This document shows positions 4,869-28,430 of a DNA stretch of 33,593 nucleotides, in pieces. This stretch comes from a virus, in IMG/VR virus record IMGVR_UViG_3300025159_000219, positions 1 to 33,593 of that record. One strand, 5' to 3'. The notes under the pieces were generated by a model. The model saw only the letters and a program-made list of their open reading frames with translations, searched no databases and was not told the DNA's origin. Position 1 is the stretch's first letter. Every line of letters begins with the position of its first letter. The position numbers were made by a program, and so were the translations under genes.

Positions 4869-5066
4869 ATGCAAATACAGATTAGTGTTAAAAGAATCTT
4901 TAAATTACTAGGATATTGTGTGTTAGTAGCATATATTGGGCTAATACCTTACATTCTATACCAGGTATTGTGGTCTGTTAATGCTAATAGGGTTGAAAAC
5001 TTTCAAAATCATGTTGAATTATATAAACAACAGCAGCAACTTTGTCAAAAAGACAGTTCTATCTAG
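4869..5066 (+). CDS. Small membrane protein at end of structural operon, 65 aa
   Basis: One long hydrophobic segment (residues ~10-35, rich in Leu, Val, Ile and Tyr) is followed by a hydrophilic Gln-rich tail. It is preceded by AGGGGG at a workable distance. It is the last rightward gene and its end overlaps the tail end of the convergent leftward gene by 8 bases. A holin, pinholin or i-spanin-like role is possible for a single-TM protein at this spot, but nothing in the sequence is specific. The function is unknown. Confidence 0.5.
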   Translation: MQIQISVKRIFKLLGYCVLVAYIGLIPYILYQVLWSVNANRVENFQNHVELYKQQQQLCQKDSSI

Positions 5067-5202
5067 TAAAGAGACTATTTAAAAATTCCTGATATTTTTC
5101 AGTTTCTTTTTTTATAGTTTCTATGGTAGCAATACACCAACTGCCTTCTCTATCTCTGTAATTAACAAAATTATCAAAGATCAATATATCTGGTATCTTC
5201 AT
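5059..5202 (-). CDS. Small hypothetical protein, 47 aa
   Basis: Last gene of the leftward operon. It opens with MKIPDILIFDNFVNY and ends with a charged helix. Its ATG overlaps the stop of the upstream lipoprotein gene (ATGA), with AAAGGA just upstream, which supports translation. Its 3' end overlaps the convergent membrane-protein gene by 8 bases. No known family recognised. Confidence 0.6.
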   Translation of the reverse strand: MKIPDILIFDNFVNYRDREGSWCIATIETIKKETEKYQEFLNSLFTR

Positions 5203-5474
5203 TTATTGATTTCCTTTATAGTTACAGAACATTTTGCCAGTTCCATCTCTGTTTGTAGAACGTAAGCAAACAGCGTTCTCATTTCTTCCAGTGAGAGACA
5301 GATATATTTATCCGTACTGACTCGAATTATTTGGCAATCATTAAATGTAAGATTGGGGCGTACTGGTATTATAGGCTCTGTATACTTTACTTGAACACCA
5401 GAACATCCAATTAAAAGTACCAGCAATGCAAGTGCGAATCCAGTTAAAACACAACTTATTATAAAATTTTTCAT
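5199..5474 (-). CDS. Phage lipoprotein, 91 aa
   Basis: Start placed at the ATG at 5474, one base after the preceding stop, because this begins a clean lipoprotein signal: MKN, a hydrophobic core (residues 4-20) and lipobox LIGC with the lipidated Cys at 24. The mature part is about 67 residues, with two further Cys, and is predicted to be anchored to a membrane and periplasmic. Small lipoproteins in phages often act as outer-membrane spanins or as superinfection-exclusion proteins. Which one applies here is not visible. An in-frame start 33 bases further upstream would spoil the signal peptide. Confidence 0.75.
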   Translation of the reverse strand: MKNFIISCVLTGFALALLVLLIGCSGVQVKYTEPIIPVRPNLTFNDCQIIRVSTDKYICLSLEEMRTLFAYVLQTEMELAKCSVTIKEINK

Positions 5475-7361: not shown

Positions 7362-7575
7362 TACCCCTCCATGCTATCAAACATTCTTTCAACTCCCTAG
7401 CCCCCAACACGAATGCAGCGAATGTAACAAAGGGCCATGAATCTAACCCATCAATTAAATACAATGTAGTAACCCCAATCAACATAAGATTCTTGAATGA
7501 TGTTAAACTTATCAATAGATATTTAAATCTATTGTTAATTAATTCCCCCAACGGTATTACATAATAATTTTTCAT
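7345..7575 (-). CDS. Two-TM holin-like membrane protein, 76 aa
   Basis: Two hydrophobic segments (residues ~28-42 and ~47-60) are separated by a short DGLDSW turn. The N-terminus is basic and so is the C-terminus (RELKECLIAWRGNGKAS). Size and topology fit a class II holin; the 'FVLGARELKE' end resembles a family of small phage membrane proteins often annotated as holins. GGGAG precedes the ATG. The endolysin is about 2.4 kb upstream in the same operon, so the lysis role is plausible but not proven. Confidence 0.55.
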   Translation of the reverse strand: MKNYYVIPLGELINNRFKYLLISLTSFKNLMLIGVTTLYLIDGLDSWPFVTFAAFVLGARELKECLIAWRGNGKAS

Positions 7576-7778
7576 TCATACACTCCCGTTATTCTAAAAT
7601 TACCATGATGCCCGTAAACGAACGGACATATCAGATGTTCTCCCTTTATAGTAACAAAATCATCATATCTGAGGTCTTTTGCCATTTCTACAGCACCTGA
7701 TAAAGATTCTGCATCTATGACAATACTACAAGTTATTGTTACTTCCGCCATAACATTAAATGAGCTTATTTTTTTCAT
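7572..7778 (-). CDS. Hypothetical protein, 68 aa
   Basis: Alternating beta-type residues (EVTITCSIVIDAESLSGAVEMAKDL) give a beta-beta-alpha pattern. This resembles small phage proteins of unknown function that carry the phrase 'V-I-D-A-E-S-L'. Coupled by ATGA to the holin-like gene downstream. Confidence 0.6.
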   Translation of the reverse strand: MKKISSFNVMAEVTITCSIVIDAESLSGAVEMAKDLRYDDFVTIKGEHLICPFVYGHHGNFRITGVYE

Positions 7779-7950
7779 AATTTGAACTCCCGAATTTTAA
7801 TATTCTAAATGTTACGTGCCCAAGATAGAATGTTAACATCCACCTATTAATTTTATGGTAGGAAAATTCAAATCCAAAATTCACATAGTCGGTCTTCTTA
7901 TATCTGTAAGTATGAGTAGTCAAATATTTGAAATTTTTTACTCTTAACAT
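7756..7950 (-). CDS. Hypothetical basic protein, 64 aa
   Basis: Start placed at 7950 because GGAGG lies 9 bases upstream and the ATG shares its A with the stop of the small lipoprotein (TAATG). The longer form from 7968 would lack a site. The protein is basic and rich in Tyr, Phe and Lys (KNFKYLTTHTYRYKKTDY). Family unknown. Confidence 0.6.
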   Translation of the reverse strand: MLRVKNFKYLTTHTYRYKKTDYVNFGFEFSYHKINRWMLTFYLGHVTFRILKFGSSNYEKNKLI

Positions 7951-8111
7951 TACCTGACCTCCACACAAACATAGACATTCAATACTTTTTCTGCCCTTAT
8001 TTTAACACACTCTCGTCTCATCTTCATCAGGTCTGGTTTGTGGGCACAGCTAAGAATAAATATACTTCCTACGACCACGCCAATCAACTTGTAGTATAGT
8101 TTTCTTTGCAT
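7950..8111 (-). CDS. Very small lipoprotein, Rz1-like candidate, 53 aa
   Basis: An N-terminal basic region and hydrophobic core (residues 9-20) lead into a lipobox ILSC with Cys22, giving a mature peptide of ~32 residues (two Cys remain). The first 62 bases overlap, in another frame, the 3' end of the 58-aa gene at 8050-8226. Its own stop overlaps the next ATG. A tiny lipoprotein with an out-of-frame start inside the preceding gene is reminiscent of Rz1 nested in Rz, although the upstream product here has no membrane anchor. The o-spanin role is therefore a guess. Confidence 0.6.
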   Translation of the reverse strand: MQRKLYYKLIGVVVGSIFILSCAHKPDLMKMRRECVKIRAEKVLNVYVCVEVR

Positions 8112-8226
8112 TTTTTATAGATACCCTTTGTTCCTCTGCCATTAATTTAGGACTGCTTTTATGTAATGCCTTAATTATTTGACTGAGTTTCCTATGATCT
8201 GATTTCTTTTTATCACGATTGCTCAT
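8050..8226 (-). CDS. Small basic protein, 58 aa
   Basis: Highly basic (KKKSDHRKL, RGRRKY) with helical character; it could bind nucleic acid. The ATG lies 14 bases inside the 3' end of the MazZ-like gene. The site (AAGAAG) is modest. Its 3' part overlaps the small lipoprotein in another frame. No family recognised. Confidence 0.5.
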   Translation of the reverse strand: MSNRDKKKSDHRKLSQIIKALHKSSPKLMAEEQRVSIKNAKKTILQVDWRGRRKYIYS

Positions 8227-8620
8227 TTACTTCTTTGAATGCCTCCAATAATTGTGATGCCTTCCCTTTTGTTGGCCTATCATCAATCAAATTACCATTC
8301 GCAATAGCATCTAATACAATCCCGCATCCTGCTCTAATATGTGCTAAGTGATGAATCCCACTATCAGATGCCAAATCTTCCCCATCAAGATAAGCAAGCC
8401 AATGCCTCATTATAGCAGCTAGATAGATAGATAATTGTATCTGTCCTTCTCTCCAATTATAAGGGCCATATCCAGTAGTGCCATCCGCTCTTTTGGTCAG
8501 ATATGCTCCAAATTTCATAGCCATAGCTTCTTGAATGATGGCTACAGGGGGAATTAAATTAACAGGTACTTTTTTAACCCCCAATAAATCTTTTGGGTTT
8601 GTTTTATCTGGATTAAACAT
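8213..8620 (-). CDS. mazZ: MazZ-like dGTP/dATP diphosphohydrolase, 135 aa
   Basis: The sequence follows the N-terminal dATP/dGTP diphosphohydrolase family closely: PKDLLGVKK (residues 9-17), a helix with PPVAIIQEAMAMKFGA, YGPYNWRE (51-58), RHWLAYLDGED (72-82), DSGIHHLAHI (86-95) and NLIDDRP (110-116). In 2-aminoadenine (Z-DNA) phages, MazZ removes pyrophosphate from dGTP (and dATP), giving dGMP as substrate for PurZ. Relatives also occur in phages without PurZ. The start at 8620 is preferred because GGGGGGACATT precedes it and the N-terminus then matches the family. 36 further in-frame bases upstream are possible. It is next to deoxyribosyltransferase-like and MazG-like genes. No purZ is present in this window. 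Confidence 0.85.
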   Translation of the reverse strand: MFNPDKTNPKDLLGVKKVPVNLIPPVAIIQEAMAMKFGAYLTKRADGTTGYGPYNWREGQIQLSIYLAAIMRHWLAYLDGEDLASDSGIHHLAHIRAGCGIVLDAIANGNLIDDRPTKGKASQLLEAFKEVNEQS

Positions 8621-8897
8621 AATGTCCCCCCGGCTCTCTGGAAGGTTCCTTTTCATCTAATGCCCCAGGGAAAAATTTATCTATCTTCTCAAACAGTTTA
8701 TCTATATTTAACATAAATTTTTGTTCATAAATTATTGGGTCTTTCTGTAGCCCACCGGACTTTTGAAGTATATTAATCAGTGTATCTAAGGCAGACAATT
8801 CTTCAAAATCAAGAACAAAAACTGTAGGAGCCTGATCTGATTTGTGAAACACGAAAGCATATTTTTGATCTTGTAAAATCAATTCTAATTGTCTCAT
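8613..8897 (-). CDS. Hypothetical protein, 94 aa
   Basis: Start moved to the ATG at 8897, where AAGGTGGGG sits just upstream; a GTG at 8909 is the other option. The N-terminal ~40 residues look beta-rich (RQLELILQDQKYAFVFH), followed by helices. It overlaps the MazZ-like gene by 8 bases. Location inside the nucleotide-pool cluster does not show its function. Confidence 0.55.
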   Translation of the reverse strand: MRQLELILQDQKYAFVFHKSDQAPTVFVLDFEELSALDTLINILQKSGGLQKDPIIYEQKFMLNIDKLFEKIDKFFPGALDEKEPSREPGGHYV

Positions 8898-8914
8898 TTC
8901 ATTCCCCACCTTAT

Positions 8915-9328
8915 CTATTTATAATCTTTTGCATCTTTTAATTCTTGTGTAGTAAATTTTTGCTCTAACTTTTTGTAACAACTTTCCCAATCAGGGAGTA
9001 TTTCATCCACTAAATGATGAAAGATATGTTGTGGATCACCAACAATCCATACTAATTTAAGATGAAATTGTCCTAGAGCCAATCCTAATTCTACTGCTTT
9101 GCCTGTACTTATTCCTTCTGCATCCATTATAAATAAATCGCAAGATAATACTTCGGCTCTATCTTTATCAGCTAATTTTCTGCCCCATTCACATGCTGTC
9201 AAAAAATCAGGCTTGACAGTTTCATCAATCCAAGAAGAAACTATAGTATGTCCCATAGACCATAATTTATCTCTGATAGGACGCATCTTTAATCTATTAG
9301 TAAAACTAGCTGAAAGATATACTTTCAT
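8915..9328 (-). CDS. Nucleoside 2-deoxyribosyltransferase-like protein, 137 aa
   Basis: Begins MKVYLSASFTNRLKMRPIRDKL, the typical first strand and helix of the nucleoside 2-deoxyribosyltransferase-like Rossmann fold. CDLFIMD (residues 63-69) and STGKAVELGLALGQ (75-87) correspond to the active-site regions, with Glu80 in the place of the nucleophile. Family members exchange bases between deoxyribonucleosides or cleave the N-glycosidic bond of nucleotides. The direct substrate cannot be told from sequence. ATGA overlap with the MazG-like gene upstream and 17-base spacing to the next gene suggest one nucleotide-metabolism unit with MazZ. Confidence 0.8.
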   Translation of the reverse strand: MKVYLSASFTNRLKMRPIRDKLWSMGHTIVSSWIDETVKPDFLTACEWGRKLADKDRAEVLSCDLFIMDAEGISTGKAVELGLALGQFHLKLVWIVGDPQHIFHHLVDEILPDWESCYKKLEQKFTTQELKDAKDYK

Positions 9329-9672
9329 TTCGCATACCTTTCTTCTAATTTCTTTAAATTATTTTTGGCAACATCATCCAAACGTAAATTAAACCTCTCA
9401 GCAAGTTGAGCAATATACCACAATACATCACCTAATTCGCCCTCTATCTTCTTCCTATCTTCTTCTGTTACTGTTCTTCTATCTCTAACTATCTTTTTTA
9501 TAATTTCCAATACCTCTCCAGTTTCTCCTGACAAACCCAAAGCTGGATATAAAAATGTATATACTGGAAAAAATTGAAAGTCATGACTATGTTCATACTG
9601 TTGTTGTACGATAGCAAAATCAGGATATTGAGCAGTATCTTCTGTCTTATCTTGATAATCATTAAAGTTCAT
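9325..9672 (-). CDS. MazG-like nucleoside triphosphate pyrophosphohydrolase, 115 aa
   Basis: Shows the all-alpha NTP pyrophosphohydrolase signature: GLSGETGEVLEIIKK with E50-x2-E53, and EGELGDVLWYIAQL with E79-x2-D82, which together bind Mg2+. The reaction is hydrolysis of (d)NTP to (d)NMP and pyrophosphate. The length is that of single-domain phage MazG proteins. AAGGAAATC precedes the ATG, which overlaps the stop of a 32-aa gene (TAATG). In this context it probably shapes the dNTP pool or removes a specific nucleotide; a (p)ppGpp role, proposed for some phage MazG, is also possible. Confidence 0.85.
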   Translation of the reverse strand: MNFNDYQDKTEDTAQYPDFAIVQQQYEHSHDFQFFPVYTFLYPALGLSGETGEVLEIIKKIVRDRRTVTEEDRKKIEGELGDVLWYIAQLAERFNLRLDDVAKNNLKKLEERYAK

Positions 9673-9770
9673 TAGAATGATTTCCTTAAACTAAACTTGC
9701 TATTTGCCTCTTTCAATTCCCACCCTTCTTCTAGCCATTCCTTGATTATGATTAAATTATTTTCATTCAT
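9672..9770 (-). CDS. Micro-protein, 32 aa
   Basis: A tiny gene between the lipoprotein stop (directly before this ATG) and the MazG-like ATG (TAATG overlap). AAGGGATGATT supplies a good ribosome-binding site. The peptide is one amphipathic helix with two Trp (KEWLEEGWELKEA). Function unknown, but the perfect fit between neighbours argues that it is translated. Confidence 0.55.
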   Translation of the reverse strand: MNENNLIIIKEWLEEGWELKEANSKFSLRKSF

Positions 9771-9992
9771 TTAATCATCCCTTCTTTTCTTGTCATCTTT
9801 ATCGTCTTTGTCCCCTTTTTCACACTTTACCATAACCGGCAGAACAAATTCTTCTTGGTGTCCATCGGGGTAAATCAAAAGAACGGACTCCGGTGTTATG
9901 ATGATTTCAGTTGCTCCTGGTACTACAATTGTGGTATCAACATCCCCACAACCCATCATAATAAACACAGCTAATAGCAATAATTTTTTCAT
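9771..9992 (-). CDS. Lipoprotein next to endolysin, o-spanin-like candidate, 73 aa
   Basis: MKKLLLLAVFIMMGCGD: a short basic start, a hydrophobic core and lipobox MMGC with Cys15. The mature protein is beta-type for ~40 residues and ends in a highly charged Lys/Asp tail (KGDKDDKDDKKRRDD). It is coupled to the endolysin by an ATGA overlap, the usual place for a lysis gene. An outer-membrane spanin subunit or host-shielding lipoprotein are the two most likely roles. Confidence 0.75.
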   Translation of the reverse strand: MKKLLLLAVFIMMGCGDVDTTIVVPGATEIIITPESVLLIYPDGHQEEFVLPVMVKCEKGDKDDKDDKKRRDD

Positions 9993-10531
9993 TCAAGTAC
10001 CTCTCGTCTCAATTTTTCAAGTCTGTTTAACCATCCTTGTAGAAAAACTTTCTGACTTGGATTTGTTTTGACTATCGCTTTATAAAACTCATATCGTTTT
10101 TGTAAATACGTCATTACTAATGGTTTTTCCCCTCGGTGTTTTATATCATGTTGTACAGCAAATATTGTTTTAGGGCCTATAATTCCATCAGGGAAAACAC
10201 CAACTATAGATTGAAGAAACTTTACTGCCCTGGGAACTCCATGATTAATTGCTGAGTCAAAGTGAACCAACGAGAGTTTATCGGGCAAAAGGTTAGCACC
10301 TGACGGTTCCCAGTAATCTCTAAGATAAATGGTTCTTGCATCTTCTTTCGTGAGAGAGGGAATATCGAGATTTGGGTATTGATTCTTAGATATACCCCAT
10401 TTCGTTTCGCCTCCCTTGTCTTTAGGGTGATTTGCATACCCACCTTCCTCTCCTATTGTGAATGCAAAGCATTTTTCAAAACTCATTATTATTAATACTC
10501 CTATGATTAATATTAATATCTTAATTTTCAC
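9989..10531 (-). CDS. GH108-type endolysin with N-terminal signal or SAR anchor, 180 aa
   Basis: Residues ~24-110 match the glycoside hydrolase 108 (zliS-type) muramidase: the catalytic E-G-G-Y motif at 29-32, followed by HPKDKGGETKWGIS. Residues ~110-180 resemble the C-terminal peptidoglycan-binding half (VFPDGIIGPKTIFAVQ). It hydrolyses the glycan strand of peptidoglycan. The N-terminal MKIKILILIIGVLIIMSF is a strong hydrophobic segment, so the enzyme is exported as a signal-arrest-release or cleaved protein. Start is a GTG at 10531 that overlaps the upstream gene by 11 bases. Confidence 0.88.
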   Translation of the reverse strand: MKIKILILIIGVLIIMSFEKCFAFTIGEEGGYANHPKDKGGETKWGISKNQYPNLDIPSLTKEDARTIYLRDYWEPSGANLLPDKLSLVHFDSAINHGVPRAVKFLQSIVGVFPDGIIGPKTIFAVQHDIKHRGEKPLVMTYLQKRYEFYKAIVKTNPSQKVFLQGWLNRLEKLRREVLE

Positions 10532-15010: not shown

Positions 15011-15396
15011 TATTTTTTTAACCTCTTAATATATTCTGTAATAGTTTTATGATTTTCTTCGCTATTGCTGTCATACCCTCCAAAACCTACAGAAAATTTA
15101 TCGGATTGGAGATATTCAAGAGAAGTTTCTTCGGGTTCAAATTGGTCTTCAAATCCATTGCAAGAACAATGACTGCCATGAACTTCATACAATTTTTTAT
15201 CCTTCTTTCCTCTCAGTAAAAAGAAACCAGTAGAATCACATCCCCAACTGCCCACAGACTCATACGCTATTAGAATATCATATTTTCCTCTTATATCTGC
15301 ATCAAAATTCTTATCTGAATACCATTGATCCCGAATGTGATCGTATATTTCTTTCAAATCTAAATCTTTCAAATCTTCTAAAAATAATCTATCCAT
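15010..15396 (-). CDS. Conserved phage protein with GSHCSCNGFEDQFEPEE motif, 128 aa
   Basis: Start moved to 15396, where GAAGGGGG lies upstream and the overlap with the helicase stop is 8 bases. The central block (YESVGSWGCDSTGFFLLRG, then YEVHGSHCSCNGFEDQ, then PEETS) is a pattern I recognise from phage hypothetical proteins found near replication genes. Several Cys and His could bind metal. Function unknown. Confidence 0.65.
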   Translation of the reverse strand: MDRLFLEDLKDLDLKEIYDHIRDQWYSDKNFDADIRGKYDILIAYESVGSWGCDSTGFFLLRGKKDKKLYEVHGSHCSCNGFEDQFEPEETSLEYLQSDKFSVGFGGYDSNSEENHKTITEYIKRLKK

Positions 15397-16903
15397 TAAA
15401 TACCCCCTTCGCCCAATCAACAGTTAGCTGTTTGAATAATTTTCTAGCCCTTCTTTTATTCTTCATTCCGGTGAACCAAACAGTCATTTCATCCTTATCT
15501 TTTATCATCCCGATACAGAGATTAATCACCATCAATTTAAACATCTTCGCCTCTGATAATCTATACTCCCGCATTTTATAGCACCAAGGTTCCTTGCTAT
15601 CAGAATAATCTTTGAAGGTGATAGTAACGTGATCTAAAACCATAACATGACAGTTATTCTGCCTTGCAAGATTCCCAAGTTTCATCATCGTGTCCCTTAA
15701 CTCAAATCTATTTTCATTCAATCCTCTTGATGATGGTATCCTGGCAAAATAATCCACAATTACTAGCCCTGGGTTTATTTCTTTGATCTTTTTTTCTATA
15801 CTTTCTACGGTAGCAGGATGATATGTAGCATCGAGCAAGAAAACATCTGTCAAGGATTCTTCTGGATCAATGTTATGCCCATCATATCTTTCTTTCACCG
15901 ATTTCAGTTCATCTTCATAAAAAACGTGTAGAACATTGTACCCGTTCTTAACTGCATTAGCTCCTATCTGGCAAGCAATAGTCGACTTCCCTGTTTCCTG
16001 CTCTGCTACAAACAGACTCAGTTCTTTTAATCCTAACCCACCATCAAGGTACTGATCTAAACTTTTTATGCCTGTGGGTATAACTTCCACCGGGGGAAAA
16101 TCTATCTTTTTAATCTCAGAATATTTGTGAATATTGGTAGCGGGGGGAGGAATCGAACCTCCATCTGTCAGCTTATGAGACTGATCGTCTACCATTGACT
16201 GTGCCCCGCTAGGTTCATATCTTGAAACACTTTTTGCTATACTTTCTACTTCTTTCTCTGATAATGGTGGATTGCAACTCATAAAATTTTCTTCTTTCAA
16301 CGCTGCAAGTATAACAGGATACTCGAACCCTTTATTTCTCATTATTCCTGCTCTGGATGTTAGGTAAGCATTTCTCTTTCCTTCTCCAATCATTTGTATA
16401 TCATAAGTTTTAGGAGAGTGAATAATAGGTTCTTCTAACTTCCACATTAATTCTTTAGGAAATTCTGCCAAAGGACATTCCCACGGTGCTATACTCCATG
16501 AGTAAGGTTTACCAGTATCAGGATGGATAGATGGGGGAGCAACTACATACCCATTATCTGACCTGACATCCACACCATCTGCTATTTTTCCTACAGAATT
16601 TTTAATTCCTTCCTGGTATTTAAAATAATAGTGCAATCCTTTTCCCGTCCTAGCTATAGGTGTATGAAAAGTGGGATCATGGGAAGTATAAAACCAATTA
16701 TCAAATTTGTCTACATCCACTACAATTATTCCAGATACCTTGCCTGTTTGAATCCCTATATTCACACCTTCATTGGGAGTATATCCGAAACCAGGAATAT
16801 ATGCGATTGCATTATTCCAATTTTTTTCTATAGGTATTTTACCTCTTAATGCAATTAATTTCCATCCGAAGTTTTTGTATCTTTCGATATAGTTTTCTGA
16901 CAA
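15389..16903 (-). CDS. Prim-Pol / PriCT / RecA-fold helicase fusion, 504 aa, with internal tRNA gene
   Basis: Residues 1-155: bifunctional primase-polymerase (VVDVD with D63 and D65, ARTGKGLHYYF around H91, GVDVRSDNGYVVAPPS). Residues ~175-230: PriCT helical domain ending SVSRYEP. Residues ~262-504: RecA-like helicase with Walker A AEQETGKST (K306; first Gly replaced by Ala300), Walker B LVIVDYF (D384), and GNLARQNNCHVMVLDH. It would make primers and unwind the fork. Codons 232-257 coincide with a complete tRNA gene in the linker, still in frame. The start is TTG at 16903, fixed by GGAG 8 bases upstream; no in-frame ATG precedes the Prim-Pol core. Two separate proteins cannot be excluded. Confidence 0.88.
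   Translation of the reverse strand: MSENYIERYKNFGWKLIALRGKIPIEKNWNNAIAYIPGFGYTPNEGVNIGIQTGKVSGIIVVDVDKFDNWFYTSHDPTFHTPIARTGKGLHYYFKYQEGIKNSVGKIADGVDVRSDNGYVVAPPSIHPDTGKPYSWSIAPWECPLAEFPKELMWKLEEPIIHSPKTYDIQMIGEGKRNAYLTSRAGIMRNKGFEYPVILAALKEENFMSCNPPLSEKEVESIAKSVSRYEPSGAQSMVDDQSHKLTDGGSIPPPATNIHKYSEIKKIDFPPVEVIPTGIKSLDQYLDGGLGLKELSLFVAEQETGKSTIACQIGANAVKNGYNVLHVFYEDELKSVKERYDGHNIDPEESLTDVFLLDATYHPATVESIEKKIKEINPGLVIVDYFARIPSSRGLNENRFELRDTMMKLGNLARQNNCHVMVLDHVTITFKDYSDSKEPWCYKMREYRLSEAKMFKLMVINLCIGMIKDKDEMTVWFTGMKNKRRARKLFKQLTVDWAKGVFNG
16135..16210 (-). tRNA. tRNA with CAT anticodon (Met or lysidine-type Ile2), inside the primase-helicase ORF
   Basis: Seen directly: acceptor AGCGGGG (16210-16204) pairs with CCCCGCT, followed by discriminator A and encoded CCA (ends 16135). 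Anticodon arm TCAGT-CTCATAA-GCTGA (last pair T-G), anticodon CAT; 5-base variable loop; T arm GGAGG-TTCGATT-CCTCC. Total 76 bases. The D arm is weak: GTC-AATGGTA-GAC with only 3 pairs and CACA in place of the usual TA-G. CAT may decode AUG or, after lysidine modification, AUA, which is frequent in these AT-rich genes. It lies on the sense strand of the surrounding CDS. Confidence 0.85.
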
Positions 16904-16984: not shown

Positions 16985-17246
16985 GTTTTTGGGGCTATTT
17001 TCAATATTTATTTTTGAACAACTTTCGCCATAACTCTTTCTTGACCATGATAAAGAATCTATCTATCATGTAACACTGTAATAATATTACATATAATAAT
17101 ATTATAACTAATACTGTATTAATATATATATATATACATATATGTTCTTTTATACTGTTATACATATTATTTATGTTTCCTTATCAAGTAGTATATACTA
17201 GTATAATATACTATACAGAATACCCCTATTATTAGTAATGTGATTA
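16985..17246. repeat. AT-rich gap with a series of palindromes
   Basis: Between the zinc-finger gene and the replication promoter. Perfect inverted repeats: GTAATA-A-TATTAC (17078-17090), TAATAC-T-GTATTA (17109-17121), TAGTATATACTA (17189-17200) and the overlapping TAGTATA-A-TATACTA (17199-17213), plus a (TA)n run near 17121-17133. No T-tailed GC hairpin is seen. It may be a protein-binding or unwinding region, or a processing/termination zone for the upstream operon. Confidence 0.55.
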
Positions 17247-17498
17247 TCATATGAATATATATTTATCAATATCCACTGTAGCATCTTCTTTCTTTATAAG
17301 TGGTGCTACGATTTTTTTCAGTAAGCTATCATATCCCCTATCTTGTAATTCTTCTTTGTCTTGTTTGTATATCACCAGTAAAGTAGGGTGATGTAAAAAC
17401 CACCCACAATTTACACACTCTATGGTGTATATTTTCCCTTGTCTAGTTTTAAGCCAATATGGAGGTTTTAAAAACCCATTACATTTAGGACAATTCAT
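17247..17498 (-). CDS. Zinc-ribbon protein, 83 aa
   Basis: Start placed at 17498 since AAGGAGG lies 7 bases upstream. This begins MNCPKCNGFLKPP with Cys3-x2-Cys6 and later C28-x2-C31 (ECVNCGWFLH), a classic zinc ribbon, then a charged helical tail. It overlaps the upstream gene by 14 bases. Last gene before the AT-rich gap. Probable nucleic-acid or RNA-polymerase-binding small protein, not specified further. Confidence 0.7.
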   Translation of the reverse strand: MNCPKCNGFLKPPYWLKTRQGKIYTIECVNCGWFLHHPTLLVIYKQDKEELQDRGYDSLLKKIVAPLIKKEDATVDIDKYIFI

Positions 17499-17658
17499 TA
17501 CAATCCTCCTTAAAAACATACCGAGCTTCATCTTCAACTGGTGATAAGATTAAACTCCACGAATGGTCATTTATCAAAAATCTCCAGATTCTTCCATACT
17601 GATCTATTGCAAACAAGTCATTACTGTTAGCAGTTATTTGAGTAAATTTGATTATCAT
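17485..17658 (-). CDS. Hypothetical protein, 57 aa
   Basis: Begins MIIKFTQITANSND and carries an AIDQYGRIWRFL strand pattern, like a small beta-sheet protein. GGGGGACAGTA precedes the ATG, which shares its A with the stop of the 39-aa gene. Function unknown. Confidence 0.6.
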   Translation of the reverse strand: MIIKFTQITANSNDLFAIDQYGRIWRFLINDHSWSLILSPVEDEARYVFKEDCNELS

Positions 17659-17777
17659 TACTGTCCCCCAATCTTTAAATAAAAACTGTTTTGATACCTT
17701 TCCCTTACTTCTTTAAAATAATCGATCCTGGGGCAACGTACCCACGTAGAAATACCATTCTTAATGTATATCCACAT
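17658..17777 (-). CDS. Micro-protein, 39 aa
   Basis: Starts inside the 3' end of the kinase-like gene (another frame) and ends in a TAATG overlap with the next gene. Basic and aromatic (MWIYIKNGISTWVRCPRIDY, then EVRERYQNSFY). The ribosome site is poor (GGTAGATG), so translation may depend on coupling. Low to moderate support. Confidence 0.45.
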   Translation of the reverse strand: MWIYIKNGISTWVRCPRIDYFKEVRERYQNSFYLKIGGQ

Positions 17778-18216
17778 CTACATCTACCAGATAGAGTTTT
17801 CCTTTCGAGTAAATTGTATTAGTCGGGTATTTATCATGAACAAAATCTAATTGCATATCTACTATGATGTTTTTCGCAAAATTAGTATCTTCCAGTTCCT
17901 TTATAATTTCTTCCATCTCTTTCGGCACAGGCTCCGATTTTATGTATTCATGATACGTTGTTACTTTATAATTTGACATTTTATCAAATCCTACAAATTC
18001 TGGTGTAGTTACATATTTTTTAAATCTCCTGGGAGTTTTTTGCTTAACTACCTTTTCCACTGTCTTTATTCTCATAATTATTCCTTCCTCTGAAAAATCC
18101 GTAAAGGCATCTTTGTGCCATATCTTTTTTACAAGATGTTCCCCTACACGGTATACTGCGCCTTCCTCCCCACAACCTATATATCTTGCTCTTTTATACA
18201 GCTTACCTTTTTTCAT
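17761..18216 (-). CDS. Mini protein-kinase-like protein, 151 aa
   Basis: Shows scaled-down kinase motifs in the right order: Gly-rich loop G14-C-G16-E-E-G19 with AVYRV, Lys30/31 after the next strand, an acidic helix, catalytic-loop-like H127-D128-x4-N133 (HDKYPTN), and a metal-binding-like LVDVDVD (D145). The D-to-N spacing (+5) and N-to-D spacing (~12) match true kinases. At 151 residues it lacks most of the C-lobe, so it could be an active atypical kinase, a pseudokinase or an inhibitor. A soluble cytoplasmic protein. GGGATATTGAGAA precedes the ATG; 14-base overlap with the gene upstream. Confidence 0.65.
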   Translation of the reverse strand: MKKGKLYKRARYIGCGEEGAVYRVGEHLVKKIWHKDAFTDFSEEGIIMRIKTVEKVVKQKTPRRFKKYVTTPEFVGFDKMSNYKVTTYHEYIKSEPVPKEMEEIIKELEDTNFAKNIIVDMQLDFVHDKYPTNTIYSKGKLYLVDVDVDIH

Positions 18217-18775
18217 TTCTCAATATCCCACCAAAAGCAGTCAATATCTTCCTATTTTCTCTCAAGTCTGTTTCCACTCTTTTCTTAATCTTGCTTACCA
18301 TGCTAAGATTAGTTTTTAATTTCTTCTCTAGTATAACTATTTTTTTCAATTGAGAGTTATAACTAGATATGATAGGATTTTTTCTCTTTTGTTCTTTTCT
18401 CTTAGGCAATTCTTTTGGTATCTCTACGGGCACGATGTCTACGGGTACGATGGGAGCTATCGTTATTTCTTCCGGGGAGAATGTTATCAATTGTAATGGT
18501 GGTGTAGGAGTATTATCTTTACTTAGTGTGTTACTATTCATAGTATCAGAAGTTAACTCAAAAACCTCGATGGGATTAAGTGTTGTTTCAGTAAGTGTCT
18601 TAGGGTTTGAGTTTTCTTCTGTGAGTTTATTCCACGGGTGTACAACACCATTCAGGTGGCAACACTCCCCACCCTCCCCGAAATTATGCTCACAACACCG
18701 TTTCCCATGAATACCCATATGAAAGTGTGGTTTGCCTTTTGGCTTTTTTATATTAAAACTATCTAATCTTTCCAT
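18203..18775 (-). CDS. Cys/His N-terminal, Pro/Thr-rich protein, 190 aa
   Basis: Residues 15-45 carry a His/Cys cluster (PHFHMGIHGKRCCEHNFGEG, then ECCHLN) likely to bind metal. Residues ~55-125 are a Thr/Pro/Ile-rich low-complexity linker with a repeated APIVPVDIVPVEIP-like phrase. Residues ~130-190 are a Lys-rich coiled coil. A tethered adaptor protein is suggested; no family recognised. Confidence 0.55.
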   Translation of the reverse strand: MERLDSFNIKKPKGKPHFHMGIHGKRCCEHNFGEGGECCHLNGVVHPWNKLTEENSNPKTLTETTLNPIEVFELTSDTMNSNTLSKDNTPTPPLQLITFSPEEITIAPIVPVDIVPVEIPKELPKRKEQKRKNPIISSYNSQLKKIVILEKKLKTNLSMVSKIKKRVETDLRENRKILTAFGGILRNEKR

Positions 18776-18778
18776 TTT

Positions 18779-19090
18779 TTAAATATACACTCCTATATTG
18801 TCTTTAACGTAGAACATACTCTCTTGATTAAGCCACGATTTAAAATATTTCAATGTCAATTCCAACATATCCGTTAAATTATTATCTGTTACTATCTCAA
18901 ACACCTTGACAGGTTCACTAAATTCTTTTCCCTCAGAGTTTACCCAAAACCCACTCCCATCATATTCTGTCCACCCCATAGCAAATCTTTTTAACTCTGC
19001 CCTGATATGATTGAAGTTAGTATCTTCTACCATGCTAGGGCATACTCTATTCCCTTTAAATTGTTTTGGTATATAGAGTTTATATATCAT
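18779..19090 (-). CDS. Conserved protein with GWTEYDGSGFWVNSEG motif, 103 aa
   Basis: Small alpha/beta protein with the core 'A-E-L-K-R-F-A-M-G-W-T-E-Y-D-G-S-G-F-W' at residues ~31-49, then strand KVFEIVTDN and a helix with LKYFKSWLNQESMFYVKD. The layout (helix, Gly-Trp turn, strand, helix, 'Q-E-S-M-F-Y') is one I have seen in small proteins of phages and bacteria with unknown function. Its ATG lies inside the 3' end of the zinc-ribbon gene upstream (11-base overlap). Confidence 0.6.
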   Translation of the reverse strand: MIYKLYIPKQFKGNRVCPSMVEDTNFNHIRAELKRFAMGWTEYDGSGFWVNSEGKEFSEPVKVFEIVTDNNLTDMLELTLKYFKSWLNQESMFYVKDNIGVYI

Positions 19091-19214
19091 TTTTTATCTT
19101 TACCTTTCTGGAAAAATCCATTCCACAATTTGCACACCTAAACCATAACAGTTTTCCGAGTTGGCCTAAAAAGTTTAATGTCCCGTTACACAGTTGGCAA
19201 TGTTTCATTCTCAT
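19080..19214 (-). CDS. Zinc-ribbon micro-protein, 44 aa
   Basis: C6-x2-C9 (HCQLCNG) and C27-x2-C30 (RCANCGMDF), separated by 17 residues, form a minimal zinc ribbon. GGGAAAG precedes the ATG, which overlaps the upstream TGA (ATGA). Unknown target. Confidence 0.65.
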   Translation of the reverse strand: MRMKHCQLCNGTLNFLGQLGKLLWFRCANCGMDFSRKVKIKNDI

Positions 19215-19366
19215 TTTATTTTTCTTTCCCATTCTGTGCTGTCTAGAGAGTTATCCTTCCTTATACGCTTTAAAGTGTCCATTGGTTTAATATTAGCATC
19301 CTTCACCACTTTTGTCAAGATGTTCCGGTACGTTTCCATCTTTTGTCTATTGTTCTTTTTTGTCAT
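19211..19366 (-). CDS. Small basic helical protein, 51 aa
   Basis: Lys/Arg-rich helices (KKNNRQKMETYRNILTKVVKD, IKPMDTLKRIRKD). The ATG is inside the preceding gene's 3' end (20-base overlap, other frame) and the stop overlaps the next ATG. No known family. Confidence 0.55.
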   Translation of the reverse strand: MTKKNNRQKMETYRNILTKVVKDANIKPMDTLKRIRKDNSLDSTEWERKIK

Positions 19367-19496
19367 GCCATGCCCTCACTAATTCTACGATACATTTTTC
19401 ACATATATTTCTACATCCTATCCCTATATTGAATTGATATACAAACTTCTCACACCCGCACTTGATACAAAAATCTTTTTTCAGTTTGATATCCAT
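19347..19496 (-). CDS. Zinc-finger micro-protein, 49 aa
   Basis: C10-x2-C13-x-C15 (FCIKCGCEKF) and C28-x3-C32-x2-C35 (GCRNICEKCIVEL) suggest a zinc ribbon or small knuckle. AAGGGT lies before the ATG. It begins 9 bases after the pseudopilin stop. Confidence 0.62.
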   Translation of the reverse strand: MDIKLKKDFCIKCGCEKFVYQFNIGIGCRNICEKCIVELVRAWHDKKEQ

Positions 19497-19505
19497 TTTG
19501 TACCC

Positions 19506-19922
19506 TTATTGTGATCCTTTGCTCTTAATATCATCCCCAAGTCCTAAATCATCTATCCCATCTAATCCAATTGAATATAGAGTGTACTGAGTTTTTGACA
19601 GTCTGGTAAACTCAAAATCCTGTTCCCAGGCATCGGTTGGAACCGAACTGATAAAACCAGGTACAAGTACACTCAATGTTGTGGGAGTGTTCCTTTTATC
19701 CCCGTAATATTCTGCTAGCGTCATGTCAAGCGAAAGTAATGTCAATCTTGTTTCCGCTTTCACAAAACCTTGTAAGGCCGGGAGTACAAGTAGAACAAAT
19801 ATCAGCCCGAACCCGGCAATCACTACCAGTAATTCTACCATTGTGAATCCTTTCTTGTCGTCCTTCACAATTTTACCTACAGCTTTCCCGTGTTGTTTAA
19901 TCATACCTATTATCTTTTTCAT
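19506..19922 (-). CDS. GspG-like type II secretion / type IV pseudopilin, 138 aa
   Basis: A prepilin peptidase site KKG25-F26-TMVE30 (Glu at +5 of the mature protein) is followed by a hydrophobic helix (LLVVIAGFGLIFVLLVLPAL). The C-terminal part has the GspG-like pattern P-T-D-A-W, strands QDFEFTRL, YTLYSIGLDG and an Asp-rich loop (121-132) like the calcium site of major pseudopilins. The leader (25 residues, basic) is long. Host prepilin peptidase would cleave and methylate it and assemble it in the inner membrane. A pilin gene is very unusual in a phage; it may modify the host's pilus or secretion machinery. AAGGGGAAAACT precedes the ATG, and a hairpin lies just upstream. Confidence 0.85.
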   Translation of the reverse strand: MKKIIGMIKQHGKAVGKIVKDDKKGFTMVELLVVIAGFGLIFVLLVLPALQGFVKAETRLTLLSLDMTLAEYYGDKRNTPTTLSVLVPGFISSVPTDAWEQDFEFTRLSKTQYTLYSIGLDGIDDLGLGDDIKSKGSQ

Positions 19923-19936
19923 AGTTTTCCCCTTTT

Positions 19937-19960
19937 ATTATTGTGTCTTTTCACAATAAT
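19937..19960 (-). promoter_or_regulatory. Perfect hairpin just upstream of the pseudopilin gene
   Basis: ATTATTGTG (19937-19945), 6-base loop, CACAATAAT (19952-19960): a 9-bp perfect stem between the preceding gene's stop and the pilin ribosome site. In the leftward RNA it is followed by AAAAGGGG, not a U-tract, so mRNA stabilisation, processing or translational control is likelier than termination. Confidence 0.55.
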
Positions 19961-19964
19961 TGAT

Positions 19965-20372
19965 TTAACTTATTAAATCTTGCTTTGCCTTAGTCCACAG
20001 ACTCAAGAATGTTTCATCATGATCCGGTTTTAACTCAAGAAGTGATTCAATAACTCTGCTCAATATACTGTGGTATTGATTGATCCTTTCTACTATATCC
20101 TTAGTATTATCCCCCGTTTCCGGTATGCTCATTGAGGGGTTCGGTGTCTTAAATACATCATCCACCGTTATCTTATCAGGGTTAGTCGGAAAAGTCTCAA
20201 CTGAGGGTAACTTGGTGGCCTTTACTGGCCCATCCTGATCGACTACCTTACCCTTTTTCTTTAATTTACTACAATACCCACAAAGTTTTAAACCAAAATT
20301 GACTTTCACCCCTAACCTATAGACCGGTTCATTACACTTCACACAAACAAACTGCACAGTTTTACTTTTCAT
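19965..20372 (-). CDS. Zinc-ribbon protein with helical C-terminus, 135 aa
   Basis: N-terminal zinc ribbon C10-x2-C13 and C31-x2-C34 (FVCVKCNEP, LCGYCSKLKKK), a Pro/Thr/Asp-rich linker (residues ~45-90) and a helical tail (IVERINQYHSILSRVIESLLEL). A transcription- or replication-factor adaptor is plausible. Two bases separate its ATG from the preceding stop and it is followed by the pilin gene. Confidence 0.6.
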   Translation of the reverse strand: MKSKTVQFVCVKCNEPVYRLGVKVNFGLKLCGYCSKLKKKGKVVDQDGPVKATKLPSVETFPTNPDKITVDDVFKTPNPSMSIPETGDNTKDIVERINQYHSILSRVIESLLELKPDHDETFLSLWTKAKQDLIS

Positions 20373-20373
20373 A

Positions 20374-20553
20374 TTATCCTTTCCTTATCGTATCTTGTTT
20401 AACCTTGACATCATCTATCAAAGTCTGAAGTGATTTTAACGCTGACACTAGATCACTTTCCATCCCACTATCTATCACTGTTTGCTTCAATGCTCGATTC
20501 AATATCTCTTGTGCCTGTTTAAGTCTGAATAACTCGATGTGTGTGAATGTCAT
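20374..20553 (-). CDS. Small helical protein, 59 aa
   Basis: Two amphipathic helices (FRLKQAQEILNRALKQ, DLVSALKSLQTLIDDVKVKQ). AAGGGG lies 9 bases upstream of the ATG. It is the first gene after the internal promoter at 20601-20629 and the inverted repeat at 20571-20588. Function unknown. Confidence 0.6.
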   Translation of the reverse strand: MTFTHIELFRLKQAQEILNRALKQTVIDSGMESDLVSALKSLQTLIDDVKVKQDTIRKG

Positions 20554-20570
20554 TTTTATTCCCCTTAATT

Positions 20571-20588
20571 GGTTAACACTTGTTAACC
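20571..20588. promoter_or_regulatory. Operator-like inverted repeat GGTTAAC-N4-GTTAACC
   Basis: Perfect 7-bp arms around ACTT, located about +6 to +23 relative to the predicted start of the leftward promoter at 20601-20629. The stop codon of the 45-aa gene lies in one arm. This is a typical place for a repressor operator or for a 5'-end RNA hairpin. Confidence 0.5.
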
Positions 20589-20720
20589 TTCTATTAGTTT
20601 ATTATACACTATCCTTGACAATCTGTCAAGGGGAGTGATCTTAGGTGATAACTTGATCTTCGACTCCACTAACTTGAATGCTTCTTTTTTTGATAGAGCT
20701 TGAAAATCTGTTAGCTTCAT
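20583..20720 (-). CDS. Small basic protein, 45 aa
   Basis: AGGTGA precedes the ATG, a good ribosome site. The peptide is helical and basic (ALSKKEAFKLVESKIKLSPK, LDRLSRIVYNKLIEG). Its last codons contain the internal promoter and both inverted repeats, so DNA signals and codons share the same bases. No recognised family. Confidence 0.5.
   Translation of the reverse strand: MKLTDFQALSKKEAFKLVESKIKLSPKITPLDRLSRIVYNKLIEG
20601..20629 (-). promoter_or_regulatory. Internal consensus promoter overlapped by palindrome
   Basis: Minus strand TTGACA (20629-20624), 17-base spacer, TATAAT (20606-20601). A perfect palindrome CCTTGACA-N3-TGTCAAGG (20613-20631) covers the -35 box. Together with the repeat at 20571-20588 it has the form of a regulated promoter for the downstream pseudopilin segment. 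Confidence 0.6.
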
Positions 20721-20727
20721 TTTTCAC

Positions 20728-20859
20728 CTATCTTTCTAAGTTTTTTACTTCGTGTTTATTTCTAAGGTGATCTTCAAAGTCTGTTACATAATCAAAGTTG
20801 AGCAAACACAATCTGCATACGAATACTTCCATGATGAAATACAAATCAGATACTTTCAT
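20728..20859 (-). CDS. C2H2-like zinc-finger micro-protein, 43 aa
   Basis: VCRLCLLNFDYVTDFEDHLRNKHE gives C15-x2-C18-x13-H32-x4-H37, the eukaryotic/Ros-like C2H2 zinc-finger layout, with Phe and Leu at the usual core positions. AGGATAAA precedes the ATG. Such fingers bind DNA in other phage/plasmid proteins, so a small regulator is possible; it lies just upstream of the palindromic promoter region. Confidence 0.65.
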   Translation of the reverse strand: MKVSDLYFIMEVFVCRLCLLNFDYVTDFEDHLRNKHEVKNLER

Positions 20860-20860
20860 T

Positions 20861-21169
20861 TTATCCTAACCTCCCAGTTTTAAAACATAGATCGCATATC
20901 GTGTGTAACTGTTTAAAATACTCGAAAGTGTACCACGTTCCACAATAGGGACATTTTAATTCCCAGTCAAGAAAATCTATCACTCTTGTGAAAAAACTGC
21001 TGTCGCATAAAAACGACCAAGTAACAAAAACTTTAAAGTTACCTTTCTTTTGATGTTCTAATAGAAAATCCCCTGGCTTGCTCCATCTTTCCCTTGCTGT
21101 TCCTTGAAATACTCTGCACTCTTCCGCAGTTTTTTTGTTGAATACTTTTAATCCTATTTCCTTATACAT
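20861..21169 (-). CDS. Zinc-ribbon protein, 102 aa
   Basis: The C-terminal half has C73-x2-C76 (LKCPYCGTWY) and C92-x2-C95 (TICDLCFKTG), a zinc ribbon. The N-terminal half is basic with aromatic strands (FKVFVTWSFLC). It follows the HicA-like gene by one base. Function unknown. Confidence 0.6.
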   Translation of the reverse strand: MYKEIGLKVFNKKTAEECRVFQGTARERWSKPGDFLLEHQKKGNFKVFVTWSFLCDSSFFTRVIDFLDWELKCPYCGTWYTFEYFKQLHTICDLCFKTGRLG

Positions 21170-21170
21170 C

Positions 21171-21359
21171 TTATTCTCTTTCTATCAGATTAGCTCTGAC
21201 CAGTCTGTTTAATTCTTTACTTTGGATTATATCATGAGAGTTATGTCTTGTCAAGGTGAATGTCAAGGATTGATATTTAACCATGACATGCGAACCTTTA
21301 CAATATCTAATCTCACACCCACGATTGACAAGCAATTTTTCGAGATCACGGTATCGCAT
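21171..21359 (-). CDS. HicA-like mRNA interferase, 62 aa
   Basis: Matches the HicA fold: helix RDLEKLLVNRGCEIR, a strand with the catalytic-type GSH (G22-S23-H24, 'CKGSHVMVKY'), strand LTFTLTRHN, then an 'S-K-E-L-N-R-L-V-R' helix. HicA proteins bind dsRNA and cleave mRNA, and are normally held by HicB; no HicB-like gene is adjacent. AAGGAAAACT precedes the ATG. A consensus promoter lies inside the coding region. A solitary phage HicA may act in host shut-off or be silenced by an antitoxin elsewhere. Confidence 0.72.
   Translation of the reverse strand: MRYRDLEKLLVNRGCEIRYCKGSHVMVKYQSLTFTLTRHNSHDIIQSKELNRLVRANLIERE
21226..21254 (-). promoter_or_regulatory. Internal consensus promoter within the HicA-like gene
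   Basis: Minus strand TTGACA (21254-21249), 17-base spacer, TATAAT (21231-21226) preceded by TGA, an ideal extended -10 promoter. A second CCTTGACA lies 12 bases upstream. It would transcribe the zinc-ribbon genes and the pilin region. Confidence 0.55.
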
Positions 21360-21379
21360 TAGTTTTCCTTAAGGTTCCC

Positions 21380-21784
21380 TTATGGTTTCCTTTGAATATC
21401 TTTTACAAGCCATCGTCTCCCCATTCTTCTTGAATGCGTCATGAACTCTTTCCAGGTGCAAGGTTTGTCTTGATTTGGATTGTATATTAACCCATTTTCA
21501 AAGGCTATAGCGTGGTTTCCGAACCTATCACCAACTATTATTATACCCTTCCCTGATAAATCTATAGGACTATCATCCGATGGAGTATTACCATATTTCC
21601 CTCTAAATTTTTCGGTATCATACCATACCGCAAGGGATGATAGCAGTTTATGTTGCCACTCGACAGTATAGATATTACCTCTTTTTGTAGGATAGTATCT
21701 CGACCAATGTTTGTAGTCAAGATTTTCGACCATACAAATTGATGCCAACCAGCATTGGTTAGGTTTTTGTTTGATATGTCGCAT
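21380..21784 (-). CDS. C39-like papain-fold cysteine peptidase, 134 aa
   Basis: QKPNQCWLASICMV near the N-terminus (Gln6, Cys11) looks like the oxyanion Gln plus catalytic Cys of C39-type peptidases. GNHAIAFENGLIYNPNQ holds His91 and a following Y-N-P-N (Asn102/104), where the third residue sits. The length matches a bare peptidase domain without signal peptide or membrane part, so it would act in the cytoplasm. The substrate is unknown; it might process a phage or host peptide. The ATG shares its A with the stop of the upstream gene. Confidence 0.65.
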   Translation of the reverse strand: MRHIKQKPNQCWLASICMVENLDYKHWSRYYPTKRGNIYTVEWQHKLLSSLAVWYDTEKFRGKYGNTPSDDSPIDLSGKGIIIVGDRFGNHAIAFENGLIYNPNQDKPCTWKEFMTHSRRMGRRWLVKDIQRKP

Positions 21785-27455: not shown

Positions 27456-27935
27456 ATGGCAGGGATTTTGTCAAAATCAGGGAGTACCATAAGACACCCG
27501 CAGGATTTAAGTCAGATCGGGTGCAGAGTTAGAGATACTGCCGACCAAAGTGTTGCTAATAATACAAACACAGTTATAACTTTTAATACTGAACGGTATG
27601 ATACTGATGGAATACATAGTACATCTGTTAATACTTCAAGATTAACTGCACAAAGAGCAGGGAAATATCTTATTTTTAGTAATTTACGGTATGCTTCAAA
27701 TGCAACTGGTCTGCGAGACAATTTTATTCAGCTTAATGGATCGACTATTATAGGTTATAATCGAGACCAAGCTGTTACGAGTAATGTTACGATTCTTACT
27801 ACAACTATAATTTATCAATTAGATGTGGGAGATTATGTTGAGTGTATTGCTAGACAGTCAAGTGGTGGAGCTTTGAATGTAGAAACTATAGGAAATTATA
27901 GTCCTGAATTTGGAATGACTTTAATGCAAGAATAA
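27456..27935 (+). CDS. C1q-like fibre protein, copy A, 159 aa
   Basis: Residues ~10-30 (RHPQDLSQIG) precede a C1q/TNF-like jelly-roll: VITFNTERYDTDGIHST, RAGKYLIFSNLRYASN, GDYVECIARQSSGGALNV, SPEFGMTLMQE. Closely related to the following gene. Host-binding fibre or head-decoration role is likely. GGTGAG precedes the ATG. Confidence 0.75.
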   Translation: MAGILSKSGSTIRHPQDLSQIGCRVRDTADQSVANNTNTVITFNTERYDTDGIHSTSVNTSRLTAQRAGKYLIFSNLRYASNATGLRDNFIQLNGSTIIGYNRDQAVTSNVTILTTTIIYQLDVGDYVECIARQSSGGALNVETIGNYSPEFGMTLMQE

Positions 27936-28012
27936 GGAGAGGAAGATCAAATGGCCGGTATAAGATCATTTGCAGGGAGTACCATAAGACACCCGCAGGA
28001 TTTAAGTCAGAT
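27478..28012 (+). repeat. 40-bp perfect direct repeat within the C1q-like genes
   Basis: Bases 27478-27517 are identical to 27973-28012, in the same codon phase near the start of each copy, though most of the remaining sequence has diverged. It indicates a gene duplication with later exchange or strong DNA-level conservation. Confidence 0.85.
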
Positions 28013-28430
28013 TGGGGCCAGGGTTTTTAATTCAGCTAATGAATCTATCTCTAACGCAACTTTAACTGCCATAACTTTTGATTCTGAAAGATATGATACT
28101 GATAATATACACAGTACATCCTCAAACACGTCAAGATTAACTGCTAATCATGCTGGAAAATATATTATCTCTGGTGGTATGGCTTATGCCTCCAATTCTA
28201 CAGGGCAAAGATTTATAGGTGTTAGGTTAAACGGAGCCACCTATATTGATGTACATGAAGTTTTGAATATAGGTGCTAATAATCATAGCGTAAGTATTTC
28301 AACAATTTATCACCTTGTTATCAATGATTATGTTGAATTAATAGCTTACCAAACTAGCGGTGGAGCATTAAATGTTCTAACTTCAGCTAATGATTCACCT
28401 GAATTTGAAATGACATTAATTCAGGAATAA
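27951..28430 (+). CDS. C1q-like fibre protein, copy B, 159 aa
   Basis: Same length and domain order as copy A (RHPQDLSQIG, AITFDSERYDTDNIHST, HAGKYIISGGMAYASN, NDYVELIAYQTSGGALNV, SPEFEMTLIQE), with the central loops differing most (GQRFIGVRLNGATYIDV against GLRDNFIQLNGSTIIGY). Such loop divergence suits receptor recognition. AAGGAGAGG precedes the ATG. Confidence 0.75.
   Translation: MAGIRSFAGSTIRHPQDLSQIGARVFNSANESISNATLTAITFDSERYDTDNIHSTSSNTSRLTANHAGKYIISGGMAYASNSTGQRFIGVRLNGATYIDVHEVLNIGANNHSVSISTIYHLVINDYVELIAYQTSGGALNVLTSANDSPEFEMTLIQE

Follow-up and report, generated by a model that had tools for sequence, protein, structure and literature searches.

The stretch of DNA analysed here (hereafter the window) is a podovirus-like virus record of 33,593 bases, encoding a terminase, portal, internal virion protein, family A polymerase, primase-helicase, MazG, GH108 endolysin and GP88. 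Its portal is only about 20-26% identical to relatives among named phages. From its overlap with a second contig, IMGVR_UViG_3300025312_000138 (39,357 bases), the window is perhaps a fragment of a genome of ~44 kb. The gene under study, P0001, is flanked by short genes of the same orientation and accompanied by a small ORF with four cysteines (Table 1).

Sequence features of the gene and its product

The first-pass annotation had noted a pseudopilin gene at 19506-19922. The ORF is confirmed but its strand needs correction: it is read on the minus strand from an ATG at 19922 to a stop at 19506, and the plus strand of the interval contains many stops. The composition of P0001 (GC 39.8%) resembles that of the neighbouring genes. 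The product begins MKKIIGMIKQHGKAVGKIVKDDKKG/FTMVELLVVIAGFGLIFVLLVLPALQ and its C-terminal end is TLYSIGLDGIDDLGLGDDIKSKGSQ. The prepilin motif KKG/FTMVE occupies residues 23-30 (KKG/FTMVELL in the sequence) and gives a class III (prepilin) signal, in which a Gly precedes F/M and a hydrophobic stretch with Glu at mature position 5 (E30). Host prepilin peptidase is expected to remove the leader by cleavage before F26. A start at an internal GTG (V19) would shorten the leader to 7 residues, but the ribosome site there is weaker. The Asp-rich loop comprises D121, D124, D125, D130 and D131, of which D121 and D130/D131 line up with the loop of PulG that contains D117 and D124, the calcium site of GspG; in P0001 the loop is a candidate calcium site. 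The prepilin motif, hydrophobic helix and GspG-like C-terminal domain with an Asp loop that had been read from the sequence are thus all found in P0001.

Table 1. Features at and around the P0001 locus (positions in the window)
Feature	Position	Strand	Basis or remark
GspG-type pseudopilin gene P0001	19506..19922	-	ORF, profiles, structure matches; 138 aa (138 codons)
25-residue basic leader ending KKG	19848..19922	-	sequence and TIGR02532; predicted cleavage before F26
Hydrophobic start of N-terminal helix, FTMVELLVVIAGFGLIFVLLVLPALQ	19770..19847	-	model helix 28-76, PulG alignment
Asp-rich loop	19524..19562	-	PulG alignment, sequence
Ribosome binding site, AAAAGGGG	19929..19936	-	sequence; 6 bases ahead of the P0001 ATG
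49-aa ORF, CxxC...CxxC (zinc-ribbon-like)	19347..19496	-	sequence
Downstream flanking gene, 51 aa	19211..19366	-	gene-overlap comparison
Upstream flanking gene	19965..20372	-	conserved in sister phage (77% aa) and L116
Segment missing from sister phage	19359..19972	.	flanks join directly there; also missing in L116
Perfect sigma-70 promoter, TTGACA-17-TATAAT	20601..20629	-	upstream of gene cluster; sequence

A divergent relative of the major pseudopilins

The Pfam T2SSG profile (PF08334) matches P0001 with 23.2 bits, above its curated cut-off of 21 bits. The prepilin N-terminus profile TIGR02532 also passes (16.7 bits, cut-off 16.3), and PF07963 (N_methyl) scores 19.0 bits, below its cut-off of 21.2. 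The NCBIfam equivalog for GspG itself, TIGR01710, detects P0001 (E = 1.4e-9) with 38.1 bits, below its cut-off of 88.85, so P0001 is a divergent GspG-domain pseudopilin rather than GspG proper. A bacterial GspG-like profile from which P0001 was left out gives it 62.8 bits, and 39.4 bits for the C-terminal part alone (the best of 1000 copies of the protein in which that part was shuffled reaches 25.9 bits), with mild circularity in these scores, as the profile was built from proteins found by their similarity to P0001.

Structural comparison points the same way. In a phmmer search of P0001 against solved structures, the first match is PulG. The single-sequence model of P0001 is uninformative (pLDDT 53). 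Adding seven bacterial relatives gives an AlphaFold model (pLDDT 75.7) with a helix at residues 28-76 and a small sheet, a long N-terminal helix with a globular pilin-fold head. This fold leans on the alignment with the relatives, and no confident fold is obtained without them. The first eleven Foldseek matches of the model are GspG, EpsG and PulG chains. In VIA-align, seven major pseudopilin entries (3gn9, 3g20, 3fu1, 4lw9, 1t92, 5wda and 5o2y) score Z 11.4 to 9.3, led by 3gn9 (Z 11.4, rmsd 2.7 over 89 residues); the remaining matches have Z <= 7.7, and the first of these is XcpT, also a major pseudopilin. The assignment of P0001 as a phage-encoded pseudopilin of GspG domain type is therefore well supported, by T2SSG above its cut-off and by the GspG, EpsG and PulG structural matches, and the protein should not be filed as GspG itself. 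The structural comparison with GspG proposed in the first-pass annotation bears out its assignment for the model made with relatives, and its term GspG-like holds for the domain type and stops short of the equivalog.

P0001 shares with GspG/PulG/EpsG (TIGR01710, PF08334), the major pseudopilins of the type II secretion system (T2SS), the prepilin signal, Glu5, the long helix, the GspG head and the Asp-rich loop. GspG leaders are usually short, and the 25-residue leader of P0001 is longer. Its helix is about one turn shorter than that of PulG, the Pro in the helix start sits one place later, and the loop ahead of the PxDxW motif is shortened relative to GspG/PulG/EpsG. Unlike them, P0001 is phage-borne and lacks a gsp operon; P0001 aside, no T2SS gene was recognised among the ORFs of the window that were scanned or read.

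Bacterial relatives of P0001 were sought by a genome scan and in samples of 285 Omnitrophota, 398 Pseudomonadota, 198 Nitrospirota and 294 Planctomycetota genomes. All relatives found are distant, sharing roughly 25-40% of residues with P0001 across most of its length. At E <= 1e-6, matches are commonest in the Planctomycetota sample (34/294) and rare in the Pseudomonadota sample (1/398). In a tree, P0001 occupies the longest branch (end branch 2.04) and is placed without support, so no donor is named and the phylogeny suggested for finding a donor lineage does not provide one. A comparison of 20 kb of the window with genomes from two phyla, 237 of one and 299 of the other, yielded tRNA and AT-rich matches only, none of them spacer-like.

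Among phages, P0001 has no match in 50,697 phage records or in a viral structure library. A bacterial GspG-like query retrieves from known phages only two 219-kb records, 'Acinetobacter phage MD-2021a', which we presume to be host sequence. The PHROG family phrog_3433, 'pilin' (moron, auxiliary metabolic gene and host takeover), is likewise phage-encoded with a prepilin N-terminus, but it matches P0001 over residues 22-50 only (29 residues, E = 0.077), far from full length and leaving the GspG head unmatched. A prepilin-motif pattern scan of IMG/VR finds 61 loci, mostly DUF1559-type (PF07596) proteins of about 300-370 aa, which share with P0001 the prepilin signal and the location on viral contigs and differ from it in length and in having another C-terminal domain. 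The contigs L049-L077 and L079-L108 except L098 are IMG/VR contigs of 4-171 kb with prepilin-signal proteins (about 300-370 aa if complete), and all six of the proteins tested from the L049-L077 and L079-L108 contigs match DUF1559 (PF07596). L094 is likely a phage genome, since a neighbouring gene (7380-10094) looks rIIA-type by eye. In the phage contig L078, a 127-aa prepilin-like gene (5025-5408) lies between tail-type genes with an integrase-like gene nearby (by eye), and the N-terminus alone of its product matches known families.

The expectation that pseudopilins are hardly ever reported in early operons of lytic phages therefore needs dividing. Prepilin-motif proteins are less rare than supposed (phrog_3433 and dozens of IMG/VR contigs), and none of those checked is of GspG type. 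Within the collections searched, the GspG type appears unusual among phages. No report of a phage-encoded GspG was found in the literature covered, mostly outside subscription journals.

Gain of the gene and its presumed early region

Only two near-identical contigs carry P0001, the window and IMGVR_UViG_3300025312_000138, in which the gene is identical; over 16.4 kb of matched sequence the two differ by 3 substitutions and 2 indels, none of them in P0001. The first-pass annotation had named a bacterial contaminant or chimeric join as what would overturn its reading. Such an origin might be suspected of a domain that belongs to bacterial proteins, but it is rejected and extremely unlikely: the second contig has the same locus with P0001 unchanged, the phage flanks are collinear on both sides in sister phages, and the composition is phage-like. 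P0001 is a genuine phage gene.

A sister phage (L008/L013, L009/L014 and L011; about 80% identical DNA) lacks bases 19359-19972, and there the two flanking genes overlap by 8 bases. The same two genes overlap in L116, a more distant relative whose helicase is 55% identical. In the window it is the 49-aa ORF whose end overlaps the start of the 51-aa gene; in the sister and L116 the upstream gene takes that place. Because both relatives lack exactly P0001 and the 49-aa ORF and have overlapping flanking genes, P0001 was gained, and the simplest reading of these alignments is one insertion of the two genes in the lineage of the window. The search of related phages that had been proposed thus yields the gene in the near-identical second contig and its absence from the sister and L116; no prepilin-motif protein was found on the available stretch of L116 or in related contigs. 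That its kin can dispense with P0001 is what a gene for exclusion or takeover would lead one to expect. The 49-aa ORF has no Pfam match; compared one-to-one with the upstream gene as a possible paralogue, it gives a non-significant E of 0.033.

P0001 is the third gene behind the sigma-70 promoter, all 29 bases of which (20629-20601) are identical in the sister. The window holds three perfect TTGACA-(16-18)-TATAAT sequences (0.09 expected), all on the minus strand in the leftward block. Between 5.2 and 23.4 kb the genes are oriented leftward, with the P0001 block close to a divergent region at 23.4-24 kb. The ribosome site of P0001 is a strong one. Given this position and the perfect promoters, early transcription of P0001 by host RNA polymerase is likely, and the early operon proposed in the first-pass annotation fits a region that looks early.

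Several other features of the window were observed. Just downstream of the promoter is a palindrome, GGTTAACAAGTGTTAACC (20571-20588), possibly an operator or 5' hairpin, which is missing in the sister although the promoter there is identical. The presumed early region (17000-21400, minus strand) contains many ORFs of 40-60 codons, several with zinc-ribbon-like CxxC pairs (e.g. 19080-19232 and 19347-19496). A minus-strand tRNA-Met(CAT) gene ending in CCA (16135-16210; Rfam 51.6 bits, cut-off 29) lies in frame within the primase-helicase ORF (15389-16903), in the linker that joins the two domains. At the corresponding linker the sister phage has a tRNA-Trp(CCA), also with a CCA end (L114 10703-10778, 59.2 bits), and L116 has no tRNA there. 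In the near-identical contig L113, a T-stem pair is broken by one substitution, the score falls to 44.2 bits and the ARAGORN call is lost. The linker tRNA is a possible case of protein/tRNA double coding. The adjacent 159-aa genes at 27456-27935 and 27951-28430 are duplicates (about 73% identical DNA over aligned parts), and the product of 27456-27935 matches a PHROG virion structural protein.

Possible roles of a phage-borne pseudopilin

The reading we rank highest, and hold tentatively as somewhat short of an even chance, is that P0001 is matured by the host prepilin peptidase, jams the T2SS or a type IV pilus, and so excludes superinfecting phages. The podovirus-like phage acquired the two-gene insert with its divergent GspG-domain pseudopilin in its presumed leftward early operon, where host RNA polymerase would transcribe P0001 early. 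The host would insert the product in its inner membrane, prepilin peptidase would mature it, and the mature protein would enter the type II secretion pseudopilus or a related type IV pilus. Its excess, or its misfit through a shorter helix and shorter loop, would jam or over-extend the filament; the jammed machine would stop cycling, and phages needing a working T2SS or pilus could not superinfect. The more specific proposal, in which a lytic-type podophage makes a decoy major pseudopilin that enters and stalls the T2SS pseudopilus or related pilus, achieving exclusion by mimicry of the piston subunit and not by motor inhibition, is possible but a little less probable.

P0001 keeps the features for filament entry, namely the cleavage site, Glu5, the helix and the GspG head with its Asp loop. 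Against jamming, no partner gene names a target, and the very divergent P0001 (end branch 2.04) could have another role. Exclusion genes are, moreover, commoner in temperate than in lytic phages. The first-pass annotation had likewise suggested that the product could poison the host's pilus or secretion system and block superinfection, and a close precedent for this has been published. In Ralstonia, the lytic podophage phiAP1 needs a functional, cycling T2SS; raising GspG alone about 10-fold cuts secretion by a factor of about 10 and leaves the cells mostly phiAP1-resistant (PMC9765573). As in the proposal for P0001, this case involves an extra major pseudopilin and a T2SS required by a lytic podophage; it differs in that an extra copy of the host gene was engineered, whereas P0001 is a divergent, phage-carried version. 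It is also established that phage proteins can exclude superinfecting phages by switching off type IV pili, some of them through the PilB motor (PMC11436027). There, D3112 Gp05, DMS3 Aqs-1 and a Pf4 protein block type IV pili, an outcome like that proposed for P0001; D3112 Gp05 and DMS3 Aqs-1 inactivate the PilB ATPase, and in the passages covered none of the three is described as a pilin mimic.

The other readings all rank below jamming. P0001 might never enter a filament, and instead act as a substrate decoy or inner-membrane inhibitor, the processed prepilin tying up prepilin peptidase or the assembly platform, or its fold might serve another early membrane takeover task. The basic 25-residue leader, unlike the usual short leaders of GspG, the shorter helix relative to PulG and the very divergent sequence all suit such a role, but the preserved GspG head and Asp loop would be needless for a mere leader decoy, and we consider it unlikely. 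The apparently functional, intact domain would suit a helper (auxiliary) gene that adds to or adjusts the host's secretion, adhesion or DNA uptake during infection, benefiting the infected cell, and excess GspG does lengthen the pseudopilus (PMC9765573). In that same precedent, however, secretion is lowered, a lytic infection leaves little time for such a benefit, and the record showed no further recognisable gsp gene; this role is less probable still.

Restriction of P0001 to one phage lineage, with the sister and the distant relative lacking it, is what a passenger gained without a selected function and bound to be lost would show. The intact frame, the gene's own ribosome site and its neighbour-like composition speak against a passenger, though its divergence from any donor is large, and we rate this slightly below the helper role. 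A virion part, for instance one whose prepilin-like helix serves in the tail or in crossing a membrane, is brought to mind by the 127-aa gene among the tail-type genes of L078; it is very improbable for P0001, whose neighbours are presumed early genes, whose locus is distant from the structural block, and which close relatives with the same structural genes lack.

That phages shut down type IV pili via the motor ATPase, that one podophage needs a cycling T2SS, and that prepilin motifs occur on viral contigs was already known; new, within the collections searched, is a GspG-type pseudopilin in a phage. Laboratory strains and a single 138-aa gene suffice for a direct test of the jamming claim. 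If it is true, P0001 would be a small natural inhibitor for studying how the pseudopilus is assembled and reset, and a phage bringing its own GspG would link pilus shut-down with T2SS-dependent infection and would point to the T2SS as a contested entry route in uncultivated bacteria.
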